NCBI RefSeq assembly: GCF_001909285.1
Contig: NZ_MRSV01000001.1
Span: 1,197,331-1,261,330, forward strand
Origin: Exiguobacterium profundum
Lineage (GTDB): Bacteria > Bacillota > Bacilli > Exiguobacteriales > Exiguobacteriaceae
DNA: 64,000 bases
Direction: 5' to 3'
Shown here: positions 1-59,566 of the stretch, one piece after another
Position numbering within the stretch: the first letter of the stretch is position 1
How the letters are laid out: every line of letters begins with the position of its first letter
Program-made: the position numbers and the translations under genes
The notes under the pieces: generated by a model
The model's database searches: none
What the model was told of the DNA's origin: nothing
What the model saw: the letters and a program-made list of their open reading frames with translations, nothing else

Positions 1-339
1 CTTTCAGATATGACAGCTACTGGTCTTTCTGTTGATACAGTTGACATCGAAACACAAACAGGTGCTAACAGCGCAATCACTGTTATCAACAACGCAATTG
101 AAACTGTATCTTCTGAGCGTGCGAAACTCGGGGCAACACAAAACCGTCTTGAGCACACAATCAACAACTTGAACGTTGGAGCTGAAAACCTTCAAGCTGC
201 TGAATCACGTGTACGTGACGTAGATATGGCGAAAGAAATGATGAACTTCACGAAAAACAACATCTTGAACCAAGCTGCACAAGCAATGCTTGCTCAAGCG
301 AACCAACAGCCACAAGCTGTACTTCAGTTGTTACGTTAA
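1..339 (+). CDS. hag: Flagellin, C-terminal part (gene starts before the window)
   Basis: The reading frame is open from base 1 and ends with a typical flagellin C-terminus: the ERAKLGATQNRLEHTINNL helix, then AESRVRDVDMAKEMM and a final LQLLR. These residues form the D0/D1 coiled core of the filament, and the extreme C-terminus is the part bound by the FliS chaperone. The N-terminal D0/D1 region and any variable central domain lie outside the window. It is followed directly by a strong terminator and then by a glycosylation block, so it is probably the main filament protein and the likely substrate of the downstream Maf transferase. It differs clearly in sequence from the second flagellin at 15346-16248. 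Confidence 0.95.
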   Translation, partial: LSDMTATGLSVDTVDIETQTGANSAITVINNAIETVSSERAKLGATQNRLEHTINNLNVGAENLQAAESRVRDVDMAKEMMNFTKNNILNQAAQAMLAQANQQPQAVLQLLR

Positions 340-483: not shown

Positions 484-2385
484 ATGTCACAACTGCGAAA
501 CATCGTAAAAGAGCTTCGGGACATCTCAAATCAAGTTGTCCTCTTAGTTGAAAACGAAAAGTGGGATGTCCTCGACGAGATTGTGGGAATCATTCGACTA
601 TTTGGCGAAAATATTCATTCTAATGGAATTCGTACAGTAGAACATGTATCGGATCTCCAAGCCATCAAGAAAGAGAATTTACAACTGTATGTCAATGTTG
701 TCTATGATAATTTGCAATTATTAATTACAGAATATGAAGCATTAATAGAAGTAGAACATCAGAATCAAATCGTCTTCCCGTTCCGCTATCATGAGAACGA
801 GATGGCTCTTATAAAGCAGAACGATAGTAGCCACTATTTTGTGAGTGAAACGCTTTTAGAGTTTGAGCGGTTGCGAGCCGAGATTGCTGATGACACGGAA
901 GCTATTATCCTTTTAGGGTATGGAAGTGGGCTGTTTCATGCTGAATTGATAAAACAATATCATGTCTTGACGATTGATCCCCTCAACTTACCGTCAAATA
1001 TTAAAAGTGATTCAGTCTTGTCTTTTCTTGATTCGCAAGACGATTATAAAACGTTATTGCAATCAAAGTTTCAATCGTTTATTGGTTTGAAAACGGAAGT
1101 TATTAAACATCCACTTTATGAGGATACAAAAACGTTACTTGAATTATTAAAATTGGTTCGAAATTATTTGAGCGAAAGTCGAATTGATTTAACGACACGT
1201 AAAGTGTACACGGAGAGCTGGTATCAAGAATCGTTTCAAAATGCGAGCTACCTAAACCGGCATTCAGATCGTCTTTTTAACATCGATTGTCTCAAACATA
1301 AATATAAAGGAAGCCATGCGCTAATGATTGCAGGGGGGCCTTCACTAGAAGATGCAATCCCTTATCTTAAACAGGCTCAGCACGCTTACTATATCATTGC
1401 GATTGGTCAGACAGTTAAAGTTTTACTGGAGAATGAAATCCGACCGGACTTTGTCATATCGATTGACGCTGGTGAAGCTAACGCTCATTTCTTCAACGAT
1501 ATTGAAATTGATGTCCCACTTGTCTATTCGTTACAAGTGAATCATCAGATTCCACAACGAGCAAAGGGGTTACTTGTCCCTTATGCTGATGCCAAGATTA
1601 CACAAGATTTGCTACCTTATACAAAAATAGTTTTCAGTACGTACCCTACGGTGGCGTTAGCAGCGGTTGCATTTGCGAACTATTTGGACTTTGATTCAAT
1701 TGGATTGATCGGACAAGATTTAGCATTGCGAGAAGGTGAATATTATAGTGCTTCGGTCAAACAAGCTTCTTCAAACGATGGTCAGTTCACTAAAACGTTA
1801 TATGACGTACCATTGAATAATGGTGAGATGGGGAAAACCACACCAATCTTATTTGGTTTTTTAACTAGTTACCAAGCATTAATCAAGTCACAGCTCGGAT
1901 TAAAAGAAAAACTAGTCAACTACGCGGAGAAAGGTGCTCGAATTGAGGGAGTTTCGTATCAATCCCTTGAAAGGCTCCACACCACACCGATTCAAAAACA
2001 GAAACTTGAACAAGTCAAAGAATCAGAATTGAATGTCCCGATTGAGCATGTACAACAATTACTTGATAGTGTGAGCGAACGATTGCAAATGCTTGAAAAA
2101 CGATTGGGTCGCGCTATAAATCAAAAAGCGGTCACCATCGATGAGTTTGAAAAAATGCTACGGGATTGGGATGCGATGATTGAAGCGCCATCTTTCCGCA
2201 CACATATCATGCCGCTTCAACTCGTCAATTTATTAATCATTCAAAATAAAATTAAATTCCATAATCGATATAATCGAACGAGTGCATTACGTCTTTCGAT
2301 TTTGTCGCGAATGTTTGAGTCGATTCAAGAACTACAAACTCAACTTCACACGATAAAACAAGCGTATGCAGAAACCATTAAGTAA
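484..2385 (+). CDS. maf: Motility accessory factor (Maf), nonulosonate transferase acting on flagellin
   Basis: A 633-residue protein with the DUF115/MAF_flag10 core: ALMIAGGPSLEDAI, a pattern shared with MptE-like pyrophosphokinases, followed by AIGQTVKVLLENEIRPDFV and DAGEAN, then a glycine-rich IGLIGQDLAL stretch. Maf proteins of Gram-positive and Campylobacter-type bacteria transfer CMP-activated pseudaminic or legionaminic acid to Ser/Thr of flagellin. The start at 484 has an AAAGGAG ribosome site eight bases upstream. It heads a co-directional run with the pse genes, which make the donor sugar. The N-terminal 250 residues are poorly conserved in the family. Codon use is AT-leaning compared with the housekeeping genes downstream. 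Confidence 0.88.
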   Translation: MSQLRNIVKELRDISNQVVLLVENEKWDVLDEIVGIIRLFGENIHSNGIRTVEHVSDLQAIKKENLQLYVNVVYDNLQLLITEYEALIEVEHQNQIVFPFRYHENEMALIKQNDSSHYFVSETLLEFERLRAEIADDTEAIILLGYGSGLFHAELIKQYHVLTIDPLNLPSNIKSDSVLSFLDSQDDYKTLLQSKFQSFIGLKTEVIKHPLYEDTKTLLELLKLVRNYLSESRIDLTTRKVYTESWYQESFQNASYLNRHSDRLFNIDCLKHKYKGSHALMIAGGPSLEDAIPYLKQAQHAYYIIAIGQTVKVLLENEIRPDFVISIDAGEANAHFFNDIEIDVPLVYSLQVNHQIPQRAKGLLVPYADAKITQDLLPYTKIVFSTYPTVALAAVAFANYLDFDSIGLIGQDLALREGEYYSASVKQASSNDGQFTKTLYDVPLNNGEMGKTTPILFGFLTSYQALIKSQLGLKEKLVNYAEKGARIEGVSYQSLERLHTTPIQKQKLEQVKESELNVPIEHVQQLLDSVSERLQMLEKRLGRAINQKAVTIDEFEKMLRDWDAMIEAPSFRTHIMPLQLVNLLIIQNKIKFHNRYNRTSALRLSILSRMFESIQELQTQLHTIKQAYAETIK

Positions 2386-2426: not shown

Positions 2427-3410
<984 letters not shown>

Positions 3411-3451: not shown

Positions 3452-4624
3452 GTGATTGATCAACCTGTAAGAAACACGTTTCTGCCTTATGGCAGACAAT
3501 GGATCGATGAAGAAGATATTCAAGCTGTGGTCGACACGTTACGAGGTGACTTTTTAACAACTGGTCCTGCTGTTGATGAGTTTGAACAAGCAATCGCTCA
3601 GTATGTTGGAGCTCGATATGCTGTCTCCTTTTCTAATGGGACGGCCGCCCTACACGGTGCCTGTTTTGCAGCAGGAATTGGTGAAGGGGATGAAGTAATT
3701 ACCACTCCGATGACATTTGCAGCTAGTGCGAATTGTGTTCTTTATCAAAAAGGAATACCTGTATTTGCTGACATTGATCCAACGACGTATAACTTAGACC
3801 CGAATGCGATTGAACAAGCCATCACTCCACGCACAAAAGCCATCATCCCTGTCCACTTTACAGGTCAACCTGCAGCGATGCAGGAGATTCATCGAATTGC
3901 CGAACAACATGACTTAGTCGTCATTGAAGATGCGGCTCATGCGTTAGGTGCCACCTATCAAGGGAAACGAATCGGTGCACTAAGTGATATGACGATGTTT
4001 AGTTTTCATCCTGTTAAACATATTACTTCGGGTGAAGGTGGAATCATCACGACAAATGATGAAGTGTATTATCGTAAATTATTACAATTTCGGACCCATG
4101 GAATTACAAAAAGTGCTGAACAGTTAGTTGATCACCATGGTCCTTGGTACTACGAAATGCAGTTTTTGGGTTTCTTTTATCGAATGACAGATATTCAAGC
4201 TGTCCTTGGAACAAGCCAATTGAAGAAGATTGAACGATTTATTGAGTTACGAAAATACTATGTTTCTTTATATAATGAGGCATTTCGCGAGTTATCTGAA
4301 ATTACGATACCGCATCAAGATGAAAGTGGAGAGTCCAGCTGGCACTTATATATCATTCGCTTAAATCAAAACCGGTTAAACGGTTCACGGAAAGAACTAT
4401 TTGAGGCCTTATTAAATGAAAACATTGGAGTCAACGTCCACTATATTCCTGTTCATTGGATGCCATATTATCAAGAGCTAGGGTATGAAAAAGGGATTTG
4501 TCCACACGCAGAAACGCTATATGAAGATATCATTACACTCCCTCTATTTCCTGCGATGACTGAGGAAGATGTGTACGATGTGATCGATGCGGTGAAAAAA
4601 GTGTTAAAACGATATGGGAAGTGA
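3452..4624 (+). CDS. pseC: UDP-4-amino-4,6-dideoxy-AltNAc transaminase, PseC
   Basis: A 390-residue PLP-dependent aminotransferase of the DegT/DnrJ/EryC1 family. It aminates C4 of the PseB product. Motifs: SNGTAALHGA for the cofactor phosphate, EDAAHALGATY, and FSFHPVKHITSGEGG, in which Lys189 is the Schiff-base lysine. The start codon is GTG at 3452; no earlier start gives the expected N-terminus (RNTFLPYGRQWI). The gene sits between PseB and the cytidylyltransferase and ends three bases before the next start, so translation is probably coupled. Confidence 0.93.
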   Translation: MIDQPVRNTFLPYGRQWIDEEDIQAVVDTLRGDFLTTGPAVDEFEQAIAQYVGARYAVSFSNGTAALHGACFAAGIGEGDEVITTPMTFAASANCVLYQKGIPVFADIDPTTYNLDPNAIEQAITPRTKAIIPVHFTGQPAAMQEIHRIAEQHDLVVIEDAAHALGATYQGKRIGALSDMTMFSFHPVKHITSGEGGIITTNDEVYYRKLLQFRTHGITKSAEQLVDHHGPWYYEMQFLGFFYRMTDIQAVLGTSQLKKIERFIELRKYYVSLYNEAFRELSEITIPHQDESGESSWHLYIIRLNQNRLNGSRKELFEALLNENIGVNVHYIPVHWMPYYQELGYEKGICPHAETLYEDIITLPLFPAMTEEDVYDVIDAVKKVLKRYGK

Positions 4625-4627
4625 AAA

Positions 4628-5365
4628 ATGGCTATGAAAACGGTGGCGATTATTCAAGCACGGATGGGCTCAACGAGGCTTCCTGGGAAAGTATTGATTA
4701 AACTGCAAGGTCGCACGGTGCTTGACCATGTGATTACTCGAGTAAAACAAGCGAAATTAATTGATGAAATCATCGTTGCAACGACAACTTTGAGTGAAGA
4801 CGATGTATTGTCGGAGGAAGCAAAGCGATATGGTGTTCGTGTGTATCGAGGAAGTTCAGATAACGTACTGAGTCGATACTATGAGGCAGCTATGGAAGCC
4901 GAAGCTGATGTGGTGATTCGAATCACTTCAGATTGTCCCTTGATAGATCCTTTCGTAATAGACCAAATGATTGAAACGTATCATAATAATCGATACGACA
5001 TTGTAACAAATGCGGGCCAGGATTTGAGTAAAAGAACATTTCCACGAGGTTTAGATATTGAAATTTTCTCGAGTGAATTACTAAGCGATGCATTTAATAA
5101 CCATAGTGAAGATTATCATATAGAACATGTTACACCCTATATGTATGAAAAAAGTCAAAATGTATATCATCATATTAACCCAATAAATGCATCGAACTAT
5201 CGATTGACTTTAGATACTGAAGAAGACTTAGAACTGATTACAAGCATATATAAGAAACTTTATACAGGAACTCACTCATTTTATTTATCTGAAATTTTAA
5301 ATCTATTGGAAAATAACCCAGATCTAAGTATCATCAATTCTCATAAAAAAAAAAAAAAATATTAA
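4628..5365 (+). CDS. pseF: SpsF-like cytidylyltransferase, likely CMP-pseudaminic acid synthetase (PseF role)
   Basis: The N-terminal AIIQARMGSTRLPGKVL is the nucleotide-binding signature of SpsF/PseF-type cytidylyltransferases. Also seen are RGSSDNVLSRYY and RITSDCPLIDP, the last carrying metal-binding acidic residues. In pse loci of Gram-positive bacteria this SpsF-type enzyme takes the place of the Campylobacter PseF and activates the finished sugar with CTP; the specific substrate is inferred from the neighbours. ATG codons at 4628 and 4634 are both possible starts. The C-terminus is KKKKKY, encoded by a 15-A run (5345-5359) that may be a sequence artefact, so the true C-terminus is uncertain. 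From about the middle of this gene the sequence becomes distinctly AT-rich. Confidence 0.85.
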   Translation: MAMKTVAIIQARMGSTRLPGKVLIKLQGRTVLDHVITRVKQAKLIDEIIVATTTLSEDDVLSEEAKRYGVRVYRGSSDNVLSRYYEAAMEAEADVVIRITSDCPLIDPFVIDQMIETYHNNRYDIVTNAGQDLSKRTFPRGLDIEIFSSELLSDAFNNHSEDYHIEHVTPYMYEKSQNVYHHINPINASNYRLTLDTEEDLELITSIYKKLYTGTHSFYLSEILNLLENNPDLSIINSHKKKKKY

Positions 5366-5394
5366 TGTAGATCTGACAAAGGATATGTATTTGT

Positions 5395-6366
5395 ATGAAT
5401 ATTATAATTTTCACTGAGGGTGGAAACGATAACGGATTTGGTCATATTTCTAGATGTAGTGCATTATATGATGAAATTGTATTGAGGGGATTGAATGCAA
5501 AACTCATTGTTAATACCGATTTAGAAAGAATTGAAATGTTATCCAATAAAGAATATGAGATAGCTGATTGGTTATCTTTATCCTATCTTGAAAGGAATTC
5601 ATTTGACCAAACATATTGCATCATTGATTCATATATTGCTGATATAGAAGTGCTTGAATATATTAAGTTAAAATCAGTTAATTGTATGTATATTGATGAT
5701 TACAATAGACTAAATTATCCAAAAGGAATTACTTTGACTCCTGCATTAATCAAAGAATCATCAGTTAAAAATAACGAGAATGAACTGAGCGGACCAGATT
5801 ATATTATTTTGCGTAAAGAATTCACTAACAAGCGAGAACGAATCATTAATGAGAAAAAAAAAAAAGTCCTTGTTACTCTAGGTGGATCAGACGCAAAAGG
5901 ATTGACAGAAGAAATAATCAAGAAAGTAATTCCCCATTTTCCATTATTCTCTTTTGATATAGTGTTAGGGAACGGAAAAAGCAGTCCTGAACTTATAGAC
6001 GAAAATAGAATCGAGAATGTAAATATTATTAATAATGCAAGTGCTTATGAAATGAAAGAGTTAATGATTGATTCCGATTTTTCTATTACTGCTGCTGGAC
6101 AAACTGTATATGAATTAACTGCTACGAATACTCCTTTCATACCAATCAAAACTGCTGAAAATCAACAAAACAATATAAATGGATTGTTTGATTTCAATGT
6201 AATTAATTGTTTGATTGACTCAGATGATCCTTTTTGGATTGAAATCTTACTTTTTGAGATTAATCGCTTAAAAACTTATGACAGTAGATTAGAGTTCTAT
6301 CATAGATCAAAAGGTTTAATTGATGGTCGTGGATGTAAGAGAATAGTTGATCGATTGTTAAAGTAG
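5395..6366 (+). CDS. pseG: UDP-2,4-diacetamido-2,4,6-trideoxy-altropyranose hydrolase, PseG
   Basis: A 323-residue GT-B-fold nucleotide-sugar hydrolase. The N-terminus EGGNDNGFGHISRC carries the PseG signature with catalytic His17. The middle has VLVTLGGSD and the C-terminal half AAGQTVYELTATNTP, the usual UDP-binding half. It removes UDP from the diamino (or N-formylated) altropyranose to give the free sugar used by PseI. A 12-A run (5854-5865) encodes KKKK before VLVTLGGSD. The gene is strongly AT-rich, unlike the flanking flagellar genes, which suggests separate acquisition. Start ATG 5395; the upstream region lacks an obvious ribosome site apart from AAAGGA about 16 bases away. Confidence 0.9.
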   Translation: MNIIIFTEGGNDNGFGHISRCSALYDEIVLRGLNAKLIVNTDLERIEMLSNKEYEIADWLSLSYLERNSFDQTYCIIDSYIADIEVLEYIKLKSVNCMYIDDYNRLNYPKGITLTPALIKESSVKNNENELSGPDYIILRKEFTNKRERIINEKKKKVLVTLGGSDAKGLTEEIIKKVIPHFPLFSFDIVLGNGKSSPELIDENRIENVNIINNASAYEMKELMIDSDFSITAAGQTVYELTATNTPFIPIKTAENQQNNINGLFDFNVINCLIDSDDPFWIEILLFEINRLKTYDSRLEFYHRSKGLIDGRGCKRIVDRLLK

Positions 6367-6380
6367 AGGTGTTTGTTGTA

Positions 6381-7223
6381 ATGAGGATGATATTTTGTGG
6401 TTTTGGTAAACTAGGAAAAGTTTGTTTAGATACTTTAATTCAAAACAAGTATGATGTTGTGTTTGTATTAACTCATAAAGACATGAGTGAGCATAGTGTG
6501 GATTCATACTGTGAAGTTAATAATATTCCCTATTCCTATATAGATGTAAGGAAAGAAGGAAATAAGCTACTGGAACAAATCTTAATCGAGAATTCTATCT
6601 ATCTAGTGAGTGTAAATTACAGATATATTTTACCTTCTAAAATCATTAATTCTGTGGAGGTGGCTATAAACCTTCATGGGTCATTATTACCAAAATATAG
6701 AGGAAGAACCCCACACGTTTGGAGTATCATAAATGGCGAAACATACAGCGGTGTTACTTCACACTTAATTGACGAAGGTGTAGATACTGGAAATATAATT
6801 AAGCAGATACGAATTAAAATTGAGGAAGATGATACTGGGTATGACTTGTTGATAAAGTTTAAAAAAGAATACCCGGACTTACTATTGGACTCTTTGACAG
6901 ATATACAGAGTGGAATATTGCCTAAAGTACAGAATGAAAGTCAAGGAAGTTACTTTGGAAGAAGAACTCCTGAAATGGGCTACATAGATTTTTTTAAAAA
7001 TACTTTTGAAGTAATTAATTTTGTGAGAGCACAAGCTAAACCATATCCAGGTGCTTATTATTATTTGAAGAATGGCAGTAAGATAATTATTCATAAAGTA
7101 ATTCAATGCTCTGATTCAATAAGTAACTTGGACAATATTGGCGTAATTGAGAAAATCGATAGTGACTACTATGTACGGTGTAAAGACAATGTTTTAAAAA
7201 TAGTTGACTATGAAATTATTTAA
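6381..7223 (+). CDS. Formyltransferase-fold sugar N-formyltransferase in the PseH position
   Basis: A 280-residue protein of the formyl_trans_N family (methionyl-tRNA formyltransferase and sugar N-formyltransferase fold). NLHGSLLPKYRGRTPHVW and the following GVTSHLIDEGVDTG carry the invariant Asn97, His99 and Asp135 that use 10-formyl-tetrahydrofolate. A tRNA formyltransferase is unlikely: the gene lies inside a sugar operon and resembles the sugar enzymes in size and motif spacing. No GNAT-type PseH acetyltransferase is present in the block, so this enzyme probably formylates the 4-amino group of the PseC product. The start at 6381 is preferred over GTG 6369 because GAGGTG at 6367-6371 serves as its ribosome site. 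Strongly AT-rich. Confidence 0.82.
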   Translation: MRMIFCGFGKLGKVCLDTLIQNKYDVVFVLTHKDMSEHSVDSYCEVNNIPYSYIDVRKEGNKLLEQILIENSIYLVSVNYRYILPSKIINSVEVAINLHGSLLPKYRGRTPHVWSIINGETYSGVTSHLIDEGVDTGNIIKQIRIKIEEDDTGYDLLIKFKKEYPDLLLDSLTDIQSGILPKVQNESQGSYFGRRTPEMGYIDFFKNTFEVINFVRAQAKPYPGAYYYLKNGSKIIIHKVIQCSDSISNLDNIGVIEKIDSDYYVRCKDNVLKIVDYEII

Positions 7224-7252
7224 ATGTGATTAACTACGAGGTGTGTATAAGA

Positions 7253-8296
7253 ATGCCTATTAATATTCAAGATATTTTTACAAAGAATTCTAAAAGTACA
7301 TTTATTATCGCGGAATTATCGGCGAACCATAATCAAGATATTCAGCTCGCACTTGATACAATAAAAGCTGCAAAGGATTCTGGTGCAGATGCAATTAAGT
7401 TACAAACTTATACTCCTGACACCATTACCATCCAATCAAGTAAAGAATATTTTACAATTAAAAGTGGTACGATTTGGGATGGTCGCACACTTTATGACTT
7501 GTACCAAGAGGCCTATACACCGTGGGAGTGGCATAAAGAGTTAATGGACTATGCAAAAGAGTTGGATATCGTTTGTTTTTCAAGTCCTTTCGACCCTACT
7601 GCTGTGGATTTATTAGAAAGCTTACAGGTACCTGCATACAAAATCGCTTCATTTGAAATCACTGATTTACCACTCATAGAATATGTTGCCTCCAAGAACA
7701 AACCAATCATCATTTCAACTGGAATTGCAACGCTTCAAGAAATTGAAGATGCAGTATCCGTTTGTCGTAAAGTTGGAAACGAGCAAATCATATTATTGAA
7801 ATGTACGTCAGCCTATCCAGCAAAAATTGAGGATGCGAATCTCGTAACGATGCAAAATATGAAAGAGACTTTCGGTGTCGAAGTCGGATTGTCGGATCAC
7901 ACGCTTGGAATCACTGCACCGATTGTGTCCGTTGCATTGGGAGCGAAGGTGATTGAAAAACATTTTATTTTAGATAAATCAATTGGTGGCCCAGACGCTA
8001 GTTTTTCTTTAGAGCCTCATGAGTTTAAAGCGATGGTCGATGCTGTTCGAGAAGCGGAACAAGCACTAGGGCGCGTCGACTATCAATAAAAAAAAAAAAA
8101 AGTGAAGAATCGTGAGTTCGCACGTTCTTTATTTGTTGTGAAAGATATTCAAGCTGGGGAAGTCTTCACGACTGAACATGTCAGGTCAATTCGTCCGGGA
8201 CATGGATTGGCTCCGAAACATATCGATTCCATTCTTGGTAAAGTGGCAAGAAAAGATATCGAGCGTGGAACACCAATGAGTTGGGATTTGATTTAG
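7253..8296 (+). pseudogene. pseI: Pseudaminic acid synthase PseI, interrupted by an in-frame TAA in a poly-A run
   Basis: The two parts are in the same frame: 7253-8086 encodes the NeuB/PseI barrel (IAELSANHNQDIQLALDTI, KLQTYTPDTIT, KCTSAYPA, GLSDHTLGI, EKHFILD), and 8090-8296 encodes the C-terminal SAF domain (REFARSLFVVKDIQAGEVF, RSIRPGHGLAPKH). Codon 279 is TAA (8087-8089), the start of a 14-A stretch (8088-8101). Without it the protein would be 347 residues, the normal length. The enzyme condenses PEP with the free sugar to make pseudaminic acid. The stop is probably a sequence artefact (see findings); if real, the SAF domain is lost. The start ATG 7253 has GAGGTG nine bases before it. 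It ends the sugar block. Confidence 0.85.
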
Positions 8297-8313
8297 TAAA
8301 TAAGATGATTGTC

Positions 8314-8429: not shown

Positions 8430-8801
8430 ATGAATCCGACCATTTCTGAAGTCAGACTTCACTTGCCTTCTTCTGTATTACCGTATGAGCAAACTAAAAA
8501 TGTGTTCGTTGAGGCCAATCAAACTCAACTCGCCGATGAAGGTATTGTTATTCTTCCGACGCCTCAACACATTACAAAGTTAGAGGCAGCGGTCGAGAAG
8601 GCGAATCAAGTCCTTGAAAAGCAACGTACCGGCTTGAAATTTATGAAGCACGAAAAACTGAATGATTATTATATTCAAATCGTCGATGCGAACAATGAAG
8701 TAATCCGTGAAATCCCAAGTAAAAAATCAATGGATTTCTTTGCGGCGTTTATGGAGTTTAATCATTTATTCGACGAACGAAAAAAAAAAAGGAGTGGGCA
8801 T
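8430..8801 (+). CDS. flaG: FlaG-family flagellar protein; its stop codon is missing here
   Basis: The first 118 residues form a FlaG (YvyC-like) protein: a variable N-terminus, then LKFMKHEKLNDYYIQIVD and NNEVIREIPSKK ending in FAAFMEFNHLFDER. FlaG influences filament length or FliD function and is normally a separate short protein just upstream of fliD. Here the expected stop falls inside an 11-A run (8780-8790). The frame stays open into fliD, giving an apparent 673-residue fusion. A single T to A change in a TAA codon would explain this. The ribosome site GGAG (8791-8794) for fliD is intact, so I treat flaG and fliD as two genes. Ribosome site GAGGGAG precedes the ATG at 8430. Confidence 0.8.
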
Positions 8802-10451
8802 ATGACATCACCAATTCGATTTGGCGGATTAGCCAGTGGGATCGATACCGATAGTATCATTAAACAAATGATGCAAGCAGAACGAATTCCAGTAGATCGT
8901 TTAGAACAGAAAAAACAATTGACCGAATGGCGGCGTGACTCTTATCGTGAGGTCAACCGTTCACTGTTAGCATTACGAAACAGCGCGGTCGATATGATGT
9001 TCAGCCGAAACTATTACGCAAAAACGGCTTCATCCTCTGATGAATCGCGTGTATCTGTCGTTGCAGGTCCATCAAGTGGAAACGCTTCGCTTACTATCAA
9101 TTCAGCGACGTTGGCTACCTCGGCTTCTCATGTAGCGGTGGCAAATGGTGGAGGCATCACAAATGACACGGCAGTTTCGACACTCGGGTTGGAGGTTGGT
9201 ATTCGGAAACAAACGTTAACTGCGGGAACAACTGAACTCGTAGTGAAACCGCTACCGAATAATCCGCCAACTTTTACGGATAAAGATGGTAATGCGATTT
9301 CGTTAGCACATACGTACGATGCGGCAACTGGGAAGATTACGTTCGATAGTGGAGTGACAATCCCTGAAGGTGCACAAGTCGTGTATGAAGCTGGCTATCA
9401 AGTTCGTTTCCGTAATGAAGACGGTGGAGCTTTACAGACAGTATATGTTGATGAGAATGCTAAGTTTAAAGATCTCGTTACCGCGTTGAATGGCACGAAG
9501 ACGGGAATTAGTGCGTTCTTTGATCAAACTTCAGGGCAGATTTCATTAACACGTAAAGACACGGGCGTGAAATCGATTATCGAATTTGAAGGCACTGCAG
9601 CTAAAGCACTATTTGGTTTAAATGGATCCGTAGCCGGGACGAATGCATCTGTGGATGTGAACGGCATTACGTTGACCCAAAGTTCAAACACCTTTACGAT
9701 TGATAATATGACCATCACATTGAAGTCCTCATTCAATGATGGCACTAAAGTAAACTTGTCCTCTGCGACAGACACTCAAAAAATCTTTGACGGAATTAAA
9801 GGGTTCGTTGATAAATACAATGAGACCATCGACCTCATGAACAAAAAGACACGAGAAGAACGATTCCGTTCGTTTTCACCGTTGACTCAAGCTCAACGTG
9901 ATGAGTTATCTGAAGACGAAATCAAGAAGTGGAAAAAAAAAGCGATGAGCGGTATGCTCCGCGGTGATACGATTTTACGCGGAACCATGGACAATCTTCG
10001 GAGCAAGTGGTCGGGTGCTACAGCTGCATCGAATGACGTCGAGATGTCACGATTGTTCCAAATCGGTCTTTCGACTGGAGCGGATTTCACCAATGGTGGT
10101 AAAATCGAACTCAATGAAGAGAAGCTGAAAGCGGCTATCGAAAAAGATCCGGAGCAAGTATATCAGTTGTTTACAGATGCTGAAACTGGATTATTGCCAC
10201 AAATCCGAGATGCTGCCAAAGATTCGCGCGATACGATTACACGAATCGCAGGAGCGGAAGGTTCTGGCGCACAAACCCATTCGATGGGGAAAGAAATGAC
10301 CGATATTGATTCGCGTATCAAGCGGTTAAATGATTTACTCGTCGATAAAGAAAACGCCTATTACCGTCGTTTCACAGCGATGGAAACAGCGATGAACCAA
10401 GCGAATGCTCAAGCGGCATCGCTGTCACAGTTTTTAGGCGGAGGCATGTAA
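8802..10451 (+). CDS. fliD: Flagellar filament cap protein FliD (hook-associated protein 2)
   Basis: A 549-residue protein starting IRFGGLASGIDTDSIIKQMM, the classic FliD N-terminus, with the FliD_C part (KGFVDKYNETIDLMNKKTREE, SGMLRGDTILRGTMDNLRS, LFQIGLSTG) and a C-terminal heptad segment ending LSQFLGGGM. It forms the cap under which flagellin polymerises. The start ATG 8802 has GGAG seven bases upstream. It is in frame with flaG because the flaG stop is missing. A 9-A run (9933-9941) gives WKKKAM where homologues usually read W-E-E-K-A, another possible artefact. fliS follows after 14 bases. Confidence 0.93.
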   Translation: MTSPIRFGGLASGIDTDSIIKQMMQAERIPVDRLEQKKQLTEWRRDSYREVNRSLLALRNSAVDMMFSRNYYAKTASSSDESRVSVVAGPSSGNASLTINSATLATSASHVAVANGGGITNDTAVSTLGLEVGIRKQTLTAGTTELVVKPLPNNPPTFTDKDGNAISLAHTYDAATGKITFDSGVTIPEGAQVVYEAGYQVRFRNEDGGALQTVYVDENAKFKDLVTALNGTKTGISAFFDQTSGQISLTRKDTGVKSIIEFEGTAAKALFGLNGSVAGTNASVDVNGITLTQSSNTFTIDNMTITLKSSFNDGTKVNLSSATDTQKIFDGIKGFVDKYNETIDLMNKKTREERFRSFSPLTQAQRDELSEDEIKKWKKKAMSGMLRGDTILRGTMDNLRSKWSGATAASNDVEMSRLFQIGLSTGADFTNGGKIELNEEKLKAAIEKDPEQVYQLFTDAETGLLPQIRDAAKDSRDTITRIAGAEGSGAQTHSMGKEMTDIDSRIKRLNDLLVDKENAYYRRFTAMETAMNQANAQAASLSQFLGGGM

Positions 10452-19998: not shown

Positions 19999-20562
19999 AT
20001 GATTTATAACATTCGCGGCGAAAACATTGAGGTCACACCAGCAATCAAAGACTATGTCGAGAAAAAGCTGGAGAAGTTGACTCGGTATTTCACAACTCCT
20101 ACGGATGCACAGACGGCTTACGTCAACTTGAAAGTGTATAACAAAAAAAAAAAAGTGGAAGTGACGATCCCGATGCCGAACTTGTTGCTCCGTGCTGAGG
20201 ACATCAACCTCGACATGTATGCGGCAATCGACCTCGTCGTCGATAAATTGGAACGTCAAATCCGTAAACACAAAACGAAACTCAACCGTAAAGGACGCGG
20301 GAAAGAAGGTGGCGTCGGCGAGTACTTCAAGTCTTTAGAAGGACCTGATGATACACCGGCCGTCTACGATGAGGACGAGGCAGAACTCGAACTCGTGCGG
20401 ACGAAACGCTTCACGTTGAAACCGATGGACACGGAAGAGGCGATTCTTCAAATGGATATGCTCGGTCACAGCTTCTTCGTCTTCTCAGACGCAGAAACGG
20501 GCAACACGAACGTCGTCTACCGTCGTAAAGATGGGAAGTACGGCTTGATCGAACCTGAATAA
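19999..20562 (+). CDS. hpf: Ribosome hibernation promoting factor, long form
   Basis: A 187-residue long-form HPF. N-terminal domain 1-100 (MIYNIRGENIEVTPAIKDYV, VTIPMPNLLLRAED, KLERQIRKHKTKLNRK) binds the 30S decoding region. The C-terminal dimerisation domain (RTKRFTLKPMDTEEAILQM, FFVFSDAETGNTNVVYRRKDG) joins two ribosomes into inactive 100S dimers. The order flagellar genes, hpf, secA, prfB is as in B. subtilis apart from the block at 11225-19740. A 12-A run (20143-20154) encodes KKKK in the loop before VEVTIPMP; Bacillus homologues have NDKESK-type residues there, so one codon may be missing. Ribosome site AAGGAGG. Confidence 0.95.
   Translation: MIYNIRGENIEVTPAIKDYVEKKLEKLTRYFTTPTDAQTAYVNLKVYNKKKKVEVTIPMPNLLLRAEDINLDMYAAIDLVVDKLERQIRKHKTKLNRKGRGKEGGVGEYFKSLEGPDDTPAVYDEDEAELELVRTKRFTLKPMDTEEAILQMDMLGHSFFVFSDAETGNTNVVYRRKDGKYGLIEPE

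Positions 20563-58507: not shown

Positions 58508-59566
<1,059 letters not shown>

Follow-up and report, generated by a model that had tools for sequence, protein, structure and literature searches.

A formyltransferase probably replaces PseH in a flagellar pseudaminic acid operon of Exiguobacterium profundum

Introduction

Which enzyme acylates the amino sugar in a pseudaminic acid operon that has no recognisable pseH? This question is raised by a flagellar gene block of Exiguobacterium profundum, found in a stretch of 64,000 nucleotides (the window; assembly GCF_001909285.1, contig NZ_MRSV01000001.1, G000:C1:1197331-1261330), in which a formyltransferase gene at 6381-7223 lies where pseH might be expected. 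PseB and PseC make UDP-4-amino-4,6-dideoxy-beta-L-AltNAc, and the donors for acylation differ, i.e. acetyl-CoA for PseH versus formyl-THF for formyltransferases. The pathway consists of PseB, PseC, PseH, PseG, PseI and PseF according to excerpts of PMC5109656, which also describe Geobacillus flagellin glycosylation islands with Pse genes, no recognised pseH and several formyltransferases, one of which, fmt2, is present in both type III islands. In these excerpts fmt2 is not assigned to the PseH step, and the likeness of the islands to the window is one of description. A sugar of the predicted kind exists in nature, as 7-N-formyl (7-formamido) pseudaminic acid has been reported from Pseudoalteromonas distincta, judging from a title cited in PMC7281560, but there it belongs to a Gram-negative polysaccharide and not to a flagellum. 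In the open-licence PMC literature, as far as titles and the openings of abstracts go, no formyltransferase is reported in an Exiguobacterium pse operon, and the word formyl is absent from the main text, in the version available, of PMC8851196, which deals with Exiguobacterium and pseudaminic acid.

Results

The pse operon between flagellin and FliD

The genes from flagellin to FliD all lie on the forward strand and are closely spaced, in the order Maf-type protein, PseB, PseC, cytidylyltransferase, PseG, formyltransferase, PseI, FlaG and FliD. Below, G000 denotes the genome of the window, G009 and G016 two Exiguobacterium congeners, and L followed by a number a locus; the G009 contig matches Exiguobacterium sp. 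s122, of the same genus as G000. The features, in window positions, are:

10..339, + strand, C-terminal part of the flagellin gene, which starts upstream of the window (313-aa ORF in L009); flagellin profile match
484..2385, + strand, Maf-type (MptE-like) flagellin glycosylation protein, 633 aa; PF01973 122 bits, NF050051 PseD domain 62 bits (below cut-off)
2445..3410, + strand, PseB, UDP-GlcNAc 4,6-dehydratase/5-epimerase; TIGR03589 544.8 bits, cut-off 407.75
3452..4624, + strand, PseC, aminotransferase making the 4-amino sugar; TIGR03588 492.9 bits, cut-off 423.5
4628..5365, + strand, cytidylyltransferase in the PseF position; PF02348 130 bits, TIGR03584 (PseF) 31 bits against a cut-off of 205.7
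4930..7490 (approximate edges), no strand, segment that differs between the window and G016, formyl-type versus acetyl-type cassette; sliding identity and GC
5395..6366, + strand, PseG-like UDP-sugar hydrolase, 323 aa, without a fused GNAT; TIGR03590 124.5 bits against a cut-off of 153.55, PseG tree
6381..7223, + strand, formyltransferase in the PseH slot, 280 aa; PF00551 and PF02911, ArnA as best PDB match (1.2e-31), alignments
7253..8298, + strand, PseI, pseudaminic acid synthase; TIGR03586 447.7 bits up to 8089 (above cut-off), 538.6 bits with one stop inside
8430..10451, + strand, FlaG and FliD, a single ORF in the G000 assembly via a poly-A run at 8780-8790; FlaG and FliD Pfam matches

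As both the PseG and the cytidylyltransferase score below the NCBIfam cut-offs, their identities rest on a sub-threshold profile or a Pfam match together with position. A first-pass annotation of the window had described the block as containing PseB, PseC, a cytidylyltransferase, PseG and PseI without a GNAT-type PseH, and profile searches bear this out: PseB, PseC, PseG, PseI and a CMP-sugar synthetase occur together, and no PseH was found among the block ORFs of at least 80 aa.

The formyltransferase resembles ArnA more than PseJ

The formyltransferase ORF is intact, running from GTG 6369 or ATG 6381 to 7223 (284 or 280 aa), and is free of homopolymer runs (scanned for A or T of at least 9 and G or C of at least 8). 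Both of its domains score above their gathering thresholds (PF00551 89.1 versus 26.1 bits; PF02911 41.9 versus 21.1), confirming the first-pass assignment, and the catalytic set Asn97-His99-Asp135 lies where it had been placed and is invariant in an alignment of 13 sequences. With the N- and C-terminal domains and the catalytic Asn, His and Asp, the protein has the hallmarks of the N10-formyl-THF formyltransferase superfamily. Compared with PseH (the TIGR03585 GNAT) and with PseG-PseH fusions, it occupies the same place and would act on the same presumed substrate, but its fold family is unrelated.

Its best PDB match is ArnA (113 bits, 1.2e-31), followed by other sugar formyltransferases and Fmt, with PseJ far lower at 57 bits over 129 residues. 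The N-terminal formyltransferase of ArnA is 33-38% identical to the window enzyme and shares an FGRRTP stretch with it, and the ArnA substrate, UDP-4-amino-4-deoxy-L-arabinose, is likewise a UDP-4-amino sugar, as predicted for the window enzyme. However, ArnA carries a fused UDP-glucuronate oxidative decarboxylase domain and belongs to an arn operon, neither of which is seen here, where the surrounding genes are pse genes. PseJ (PDB 6ci2, 6ci4, 6ci5 and 6edk; presumably of Anoxybacillus origin) is alike in setting, being a formyltransferase among pse genes that stands in for pseH beside PseI, just as the window enzyme takes the pseH place beside PseG and PseI. The two differ in the enzyme itself: the PseJ chain has 192 aa versus 280 aa with a C-terminal domain, and the window enzyme is 24-26% identical to PseJ-type sequences and holds a separate tree position. 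By comparison, the protein of a Bacilli locus, L110, reaches 228 bits against PseJ; this PseJ relative also matches the formylation domain of gramicidin synthase.

In a tree of 28 chosen sequences, the window and G009 formyltransferases form a clade (support 100/98), joined by a distant protein of G214 (98/97). The PseJ-type clade, the Fmt-labelled sequences and the ArnA sequences all fall outside it, and several deeper forks are poorly resolved. Homology leaves the substrate of the window enzyme unfixed, since it is not PseJ-like and is 33-38% identical to ArnA. Being nearer the ArnA formyltransferase than PseJ, by sequence comparison, it was probably recruited separately.

The window formyltransferase was found in 2 of 19 genus genomes, and a search of a class sample of 398 genomes at 1e-30 gave three matches, namely G000, G009 and, weakly, G214. 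The G214 relative (252 aa, 35% identity, L126 7817-8572) lies about 20 kb from PseI, and a PseH-type GNAT is present in G214 as well. In a phylum sample of 398 genomes, which partly overlaps the class sample, there are 30 matches; apart from G000, they score 137 bits or less and are taken for Fmt- or ArnA-like proteins. Scanning genome contigs with two short peptide patterns returned one locus, that of Exiguobacterium sp. s122, and viral contigs gave no match to the patterns. Among plasmids 387 records match, 14 of the 15 matches listed being annotated arnA at 32-34% identity; among phages 44 records match, with 26-38% identity among the 10 matches listed, the best listed being an arn operon in a phage record. 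This record (L146; OQ572407.1, Pseudomonas phage Y5, unverified) holds a host-like arn operon with an ArnA-like 662-aa ORF and its neighbours, and is probably contamination.

No dedicated PseH was found in the genome

The first-pass annotation had proposed searching the genome for a distant pseH. Using TIGR03585, no protein above the cut-off was found in G000 or in any of the 19 genus genomes; G000 gave 20 weak GNAT matches, the best at 39.6 bits. As the PseH domain of G016 itself reaches only 38.8 bits, TIGR03585 is an insensitive test for pseH, and a profile of our own was therefore built from 12 PseH-type domains, picked from among the 34 loci with such a domain, with a second version omitting the G016 row. 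The full profile gave 151.8 bits for the G016 domain versus 58.6 for the best G000 GNAT, and the version without the G016 row gave 102.6 versus 59.0 bits, so that neither TIGR03585 nor the better profile finds a pseH in G000. The best G000 GNAT is unlikely to be a dedicated PseH, because proteins 94-95% identical to it occur in the congeners G001, G002 and G013, all three without a PseI match. G000 is a 2.92-Mb assembly of 21 contigs with base errors, so a missed pseH is conceivable, although G009 agrees.

Congeners differ by an acyl cassette

PseI is present in 3 of 19 genus genomes and in 4 of 38 family genomes. The gene layout of G009 matches that of the window; its formyltransferase is 71% identical to the window enzyme and its PseG is unfused. 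In G016, a 477-aa fusion of PseG with a PseH-type GNAT occupies the slot directly 5' of PseI, and the matches to the window formyltransferase in this genome are Fmt- and PurN-like, with no closer relative. Outside the differing segment, G016 is much nearer to the window than G009 is (PseB 99.4%, PseC 98.2%, FlaG part 97.4%, FliD part 97.8%, Maf 92.6%), in contrast to its cytidylyltransferase (69.7%) and PseG (37%).

The edges of this segment were located by DNA identity between the window and G016 in 60-nt steps. Identity is 0.90-1.0 in PseC and remains at 0.87-0.98 for 300 nt into the cytidylyltransferase gene, drops to 0.77 in the next step and then to 0.55-0.70, and in pseI rises from 0.32-0.78 over the first 240 nt to 0.87-0.98 thereafter. 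The segment (~4.93-7.49 kb) therefore begins inside the cytidylyltransferase gene, of which the first ~300 nt are G016-like and the remainder divergent (identity break near 4930-4990, with a poly-A run at 5345-5359 at the gene end), and finishes inside pseI. Its GC content is 28.5-33.6%, versus 41-45% in PseB, PseC, the 5' part of the cytidylyltransferase gene, the 3' part of PseI and FliD; Maf has 38.4% and the whole window 47.9%. Among the congeners, the G009 PseG and formyltransferase have 28.6% and 30.0%, and the G016 PseG-PseH 36.5%. The pattern reads as one cassette having been replaced by another via flanking homology, in either direction.

PseG history and the downstream enzymes

A PseG tree was built from 48 sequences of 51 Bacilli PseI loci, three of which gave no usable PseG match. 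The window and G009 PseG fall in a clade of five (support 100/100) whose other members, from G016, G270 and G278, are all PseG-PseH fusions, while the fusions of L120 and L125 lie across the midpoint root but near it; the tree program flagged long branches meeting between L117 and the window PseG group. According to this tree, G009 aside, the nearest relatives of the window PseG carry a fused acetyltransferase, instead of which the window has a separate formyltransferase. Single fused PseG-PseH proteins of 476-520 aa occur in 5 of the 51 loci (L044, L080, L081, L120 and L125; genomes G016, G270, G278, G089 and G087).

We also compared alignment columns of PseI, PseG and PseC between the five operons with a window- or PseJ-type enzyme and the 32 GNAT-only operons, leaving aside the two loci that have both enzymes (L083, L113), the three with other formyltransferase types (L086, L096, L117) and the nine with neither enzyme. 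No column is uniform in the five and at the same time rare (at most 15%) in the 32. Either PseG and PseI tolerate both acyl groups, or they adapt in ways invisible to this test.

Formyltransferases and GNATs around PseI in Bacilli

PseI scores above its cut-off in 50 of 398 Bacilli genomes, at 51 loci. Up to 19-20 kb around each locus was taken, with neighbours labelled by profiles grown from window and G016 proteins; L009, the G000 locus, ends inside pseI, and its downstream side was taken from the window. A PseH-type GNAT (at least 100 bits with our own profile) is found without a formyltransferase-like gene at 32 loci and the reverse at 8, with both at 2 (L083, L113) and neither at 9. Formyltransferase-like genes are thus present in 2 of 34 loci with a GNAT versus 8 of 17 without (Fisher p 0.0011, treating loci as independent and ignoring relatedness). 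As nine loci have neither enzyme, the absence of a neighbouring pseH is by itself no sign of formylation. L085, L089, L095, L099 and L125 are cut by contig ends, L099 (5.6 kb) and L089 being among these nine.

The window-type enzyme is found at L009 and L043. PseJ-type enzymes occur at L079, L107 and L110, where they adjoin pseI (on the opposite strand in L107) with no GNAT detected; L110 is so called by its PseJ match, and L079 and L107 by 50-54% identity to L110 and to each other. None of these five loci has a PseH-type GNAT. The first-pass suggestion that a formyl form in a flagellar setting with Maf would be notable in Bacillota was too strong, given that PseJ already has PDB entries and that 3 of the 51 Bacilli loci have a PseJ-type gene next to pseI, with Maf detected in two of them (L107 and L110).

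Other arrangements were seen as well. A third formyltransferase-like type, of 211-227 aa, lies next to or near PseI in L117 and L083, the L117 member being nearest to PDB 1zgh (named methionyl-tRNA formyltransferase), and a fourth, of ~270 aa, occurs in L086, L096 and L113, with the L096 copy directly before PseI and no PseG detected there. L118, L123 and L124 have ORFs of 591-607 aa, 4-5 kb before the main PseI, that match both PseI and cytidylyltransferase profiles and possibly belong to a second nonulosonic acid pathway.

Poly-A runs and the stop in pseI

The assembled pseI ORF ends at 8089, in a run of 14 A (8088-8101), with the C-terminal part continuing in the same frame; the first-pass annotation had not mentioned this. 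The pseI genes of G009 and G016 have no internal stop. Runs of at least 11 A (11-15 A) are found at 2524, 5345, 5854, 8088 and 8780 in the block and at 20143, 58863 and 61199 elsewhere in the window, which has no T-run of at least 11. Counting overlapping positions, G000 has 163 forward and 26 reverse matches to 12 A, compared with 0-6 per genome in 18 congeners. At 2524, 8088 and 8780, G016 has ordinary sequence of equal length; 5345 and 5854 were comparable with G009 alone, and no alignment was obtained at 20143. An ORF that we take to be gapA, a glycolytic gene, is split by the run at 58863. Similarly, FlaG and FliD, joined in the G000 assembly, are separate ORFs in G009 and G016.

Phase variation via poly-A tracts was considered and rejected, because 12-A matches are frequent and strand-biased in G000 and nearly absent from the 18 congeners, because G016 has ordinary equal-length sequence at three of the runs, and because one run sits in the putative gapA. 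Judged from these sequences, the runs are probably assembly or base-calling errors, with pseI, gapA and the FlaG/FliD boundary intact in the organism, and the pseI stop in particular is very probably an assembly artefact. Annotation of the whole G000 genome may be affected by such runs.

Discussion

From the comparisons above, the formyltransferase at 6381-7223 probably replaces PseH, a reading to which we assign a probability of about 0.85, and would give rise to 5-N-acetyl-7-N-formyl-pseudaminic acid. The PseH step is most likely carried out with formyl, in view of the slot swap between G016 and G009, the absence of a detectable pseH in G000 and the PseG tree. The role proposed by the first-pass annotation is thus well supported, and its chemical product remains a prediction. 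We infer the substrate, the formyl donor, the formyl position, the product and the attachment to flagellin as follows. Formyl would be moved from N10-formyl-tetrahydrofolate to the 4-amino group of the PseC product via Asn97, His99 and Asp135; PseG would then take off UDP, PseI would add phosphoenolpyruvate, and the cytidylyltransferase would activate the sugar to CMP-5-N-acetyl-7-N-formyl-pseudaminic acid, which the Maf protein would put on flagellin. Because the formyl enzyme sits where a close relative has an acetyl one, the flagella of this strain probably carry a formylated sugar.

Several other explanations were weighed. A GNAT encoded elsewhere on the chromosome might acetylate the PseC product, leaving the formyltransferase with a different sugar or a later pathway step. 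G000 does have many GNATs, including the 20 weak TIGR03585 matches and the one at 59.0 bits on the PseH profile, but proteins 94-95% identical to the latter in PseI-less congeners argue against this, as does the GNAT of 275-280 aa upstream of the operon, which is also present in G016 with its own PseH; moreover, from flagellin to FliD no ORF points to a second sugar pathway. We regard this explanation as unlikely. It is very unlikely that formylation is only transient, as in the ArnA/ArnD route, with later removal leaving a sugar with a free or differently acylated amine: the best solved relative is indeed the formyltransferase of ArnA, whose operon also has the deformylase ArnD, yet no deformylase-like gene was noticed by eye among the flagellin-FliD ORFs, the main ones belonging to other families.

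The truncation of the assembled pseI ORF at 8089 could mean that the operon is dead in this strain. Against this, the stop sits in a poly-A run of a kind abundant in G000 and scarce in its congeners, replaced by ordinary sequence in G016, and one similar run splits the putative gapA, which makes a dead operon very improbable. Hardly credible, finally, is a second methionyl-tRNA formyltransferase that lies in the operon by chance. Both Fmt domains are present and TIGR00460 gives 132.6 bits, though under its cut-off of 201.5; but a further Fmt-like protein of G000 (L029) clusters with Fmt-like sequences of three congeners (Fmt labels being ours), with the window enzyme outside this group, and two species share the formyltransferase at this position.

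A formyltransferase in the place of PseH already has a precedent in PseJ; what sets this case apart is the different type of enzyme and the clean cassette difference between close congeners. We would give even odds to a broader proposal, in which homologous recombination lets Exiguobacterium alternate between acyl types of its flagellar sugar by exchanging a ~2.5 kb cassette that extends from the interior of the CMP-sugar synthetase gene to the interior of pseI and contains pseG and the acyl enzyme. The acetyl form would be the PseG-PseH fusion and the formyl form would use an enzyme that came from the ArnA-like side, separately from PseJ, with the switch perhaps changing antigenicity or phage adsorption. 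With two flagellar operons that are almost the same to either side of the swap and differ in the acyl step and its neighbours, it would be possible to test directly how a formyl or an acetyl group on the sugar affects flagella, Maf specificity and phage adsorption. For annotation, pse operons without pseH should not default to diacetylated pseudaminic acid. In summary, our findings suggest that PseH has been replaced by a formyltransferase more than once, from different enzyme types.
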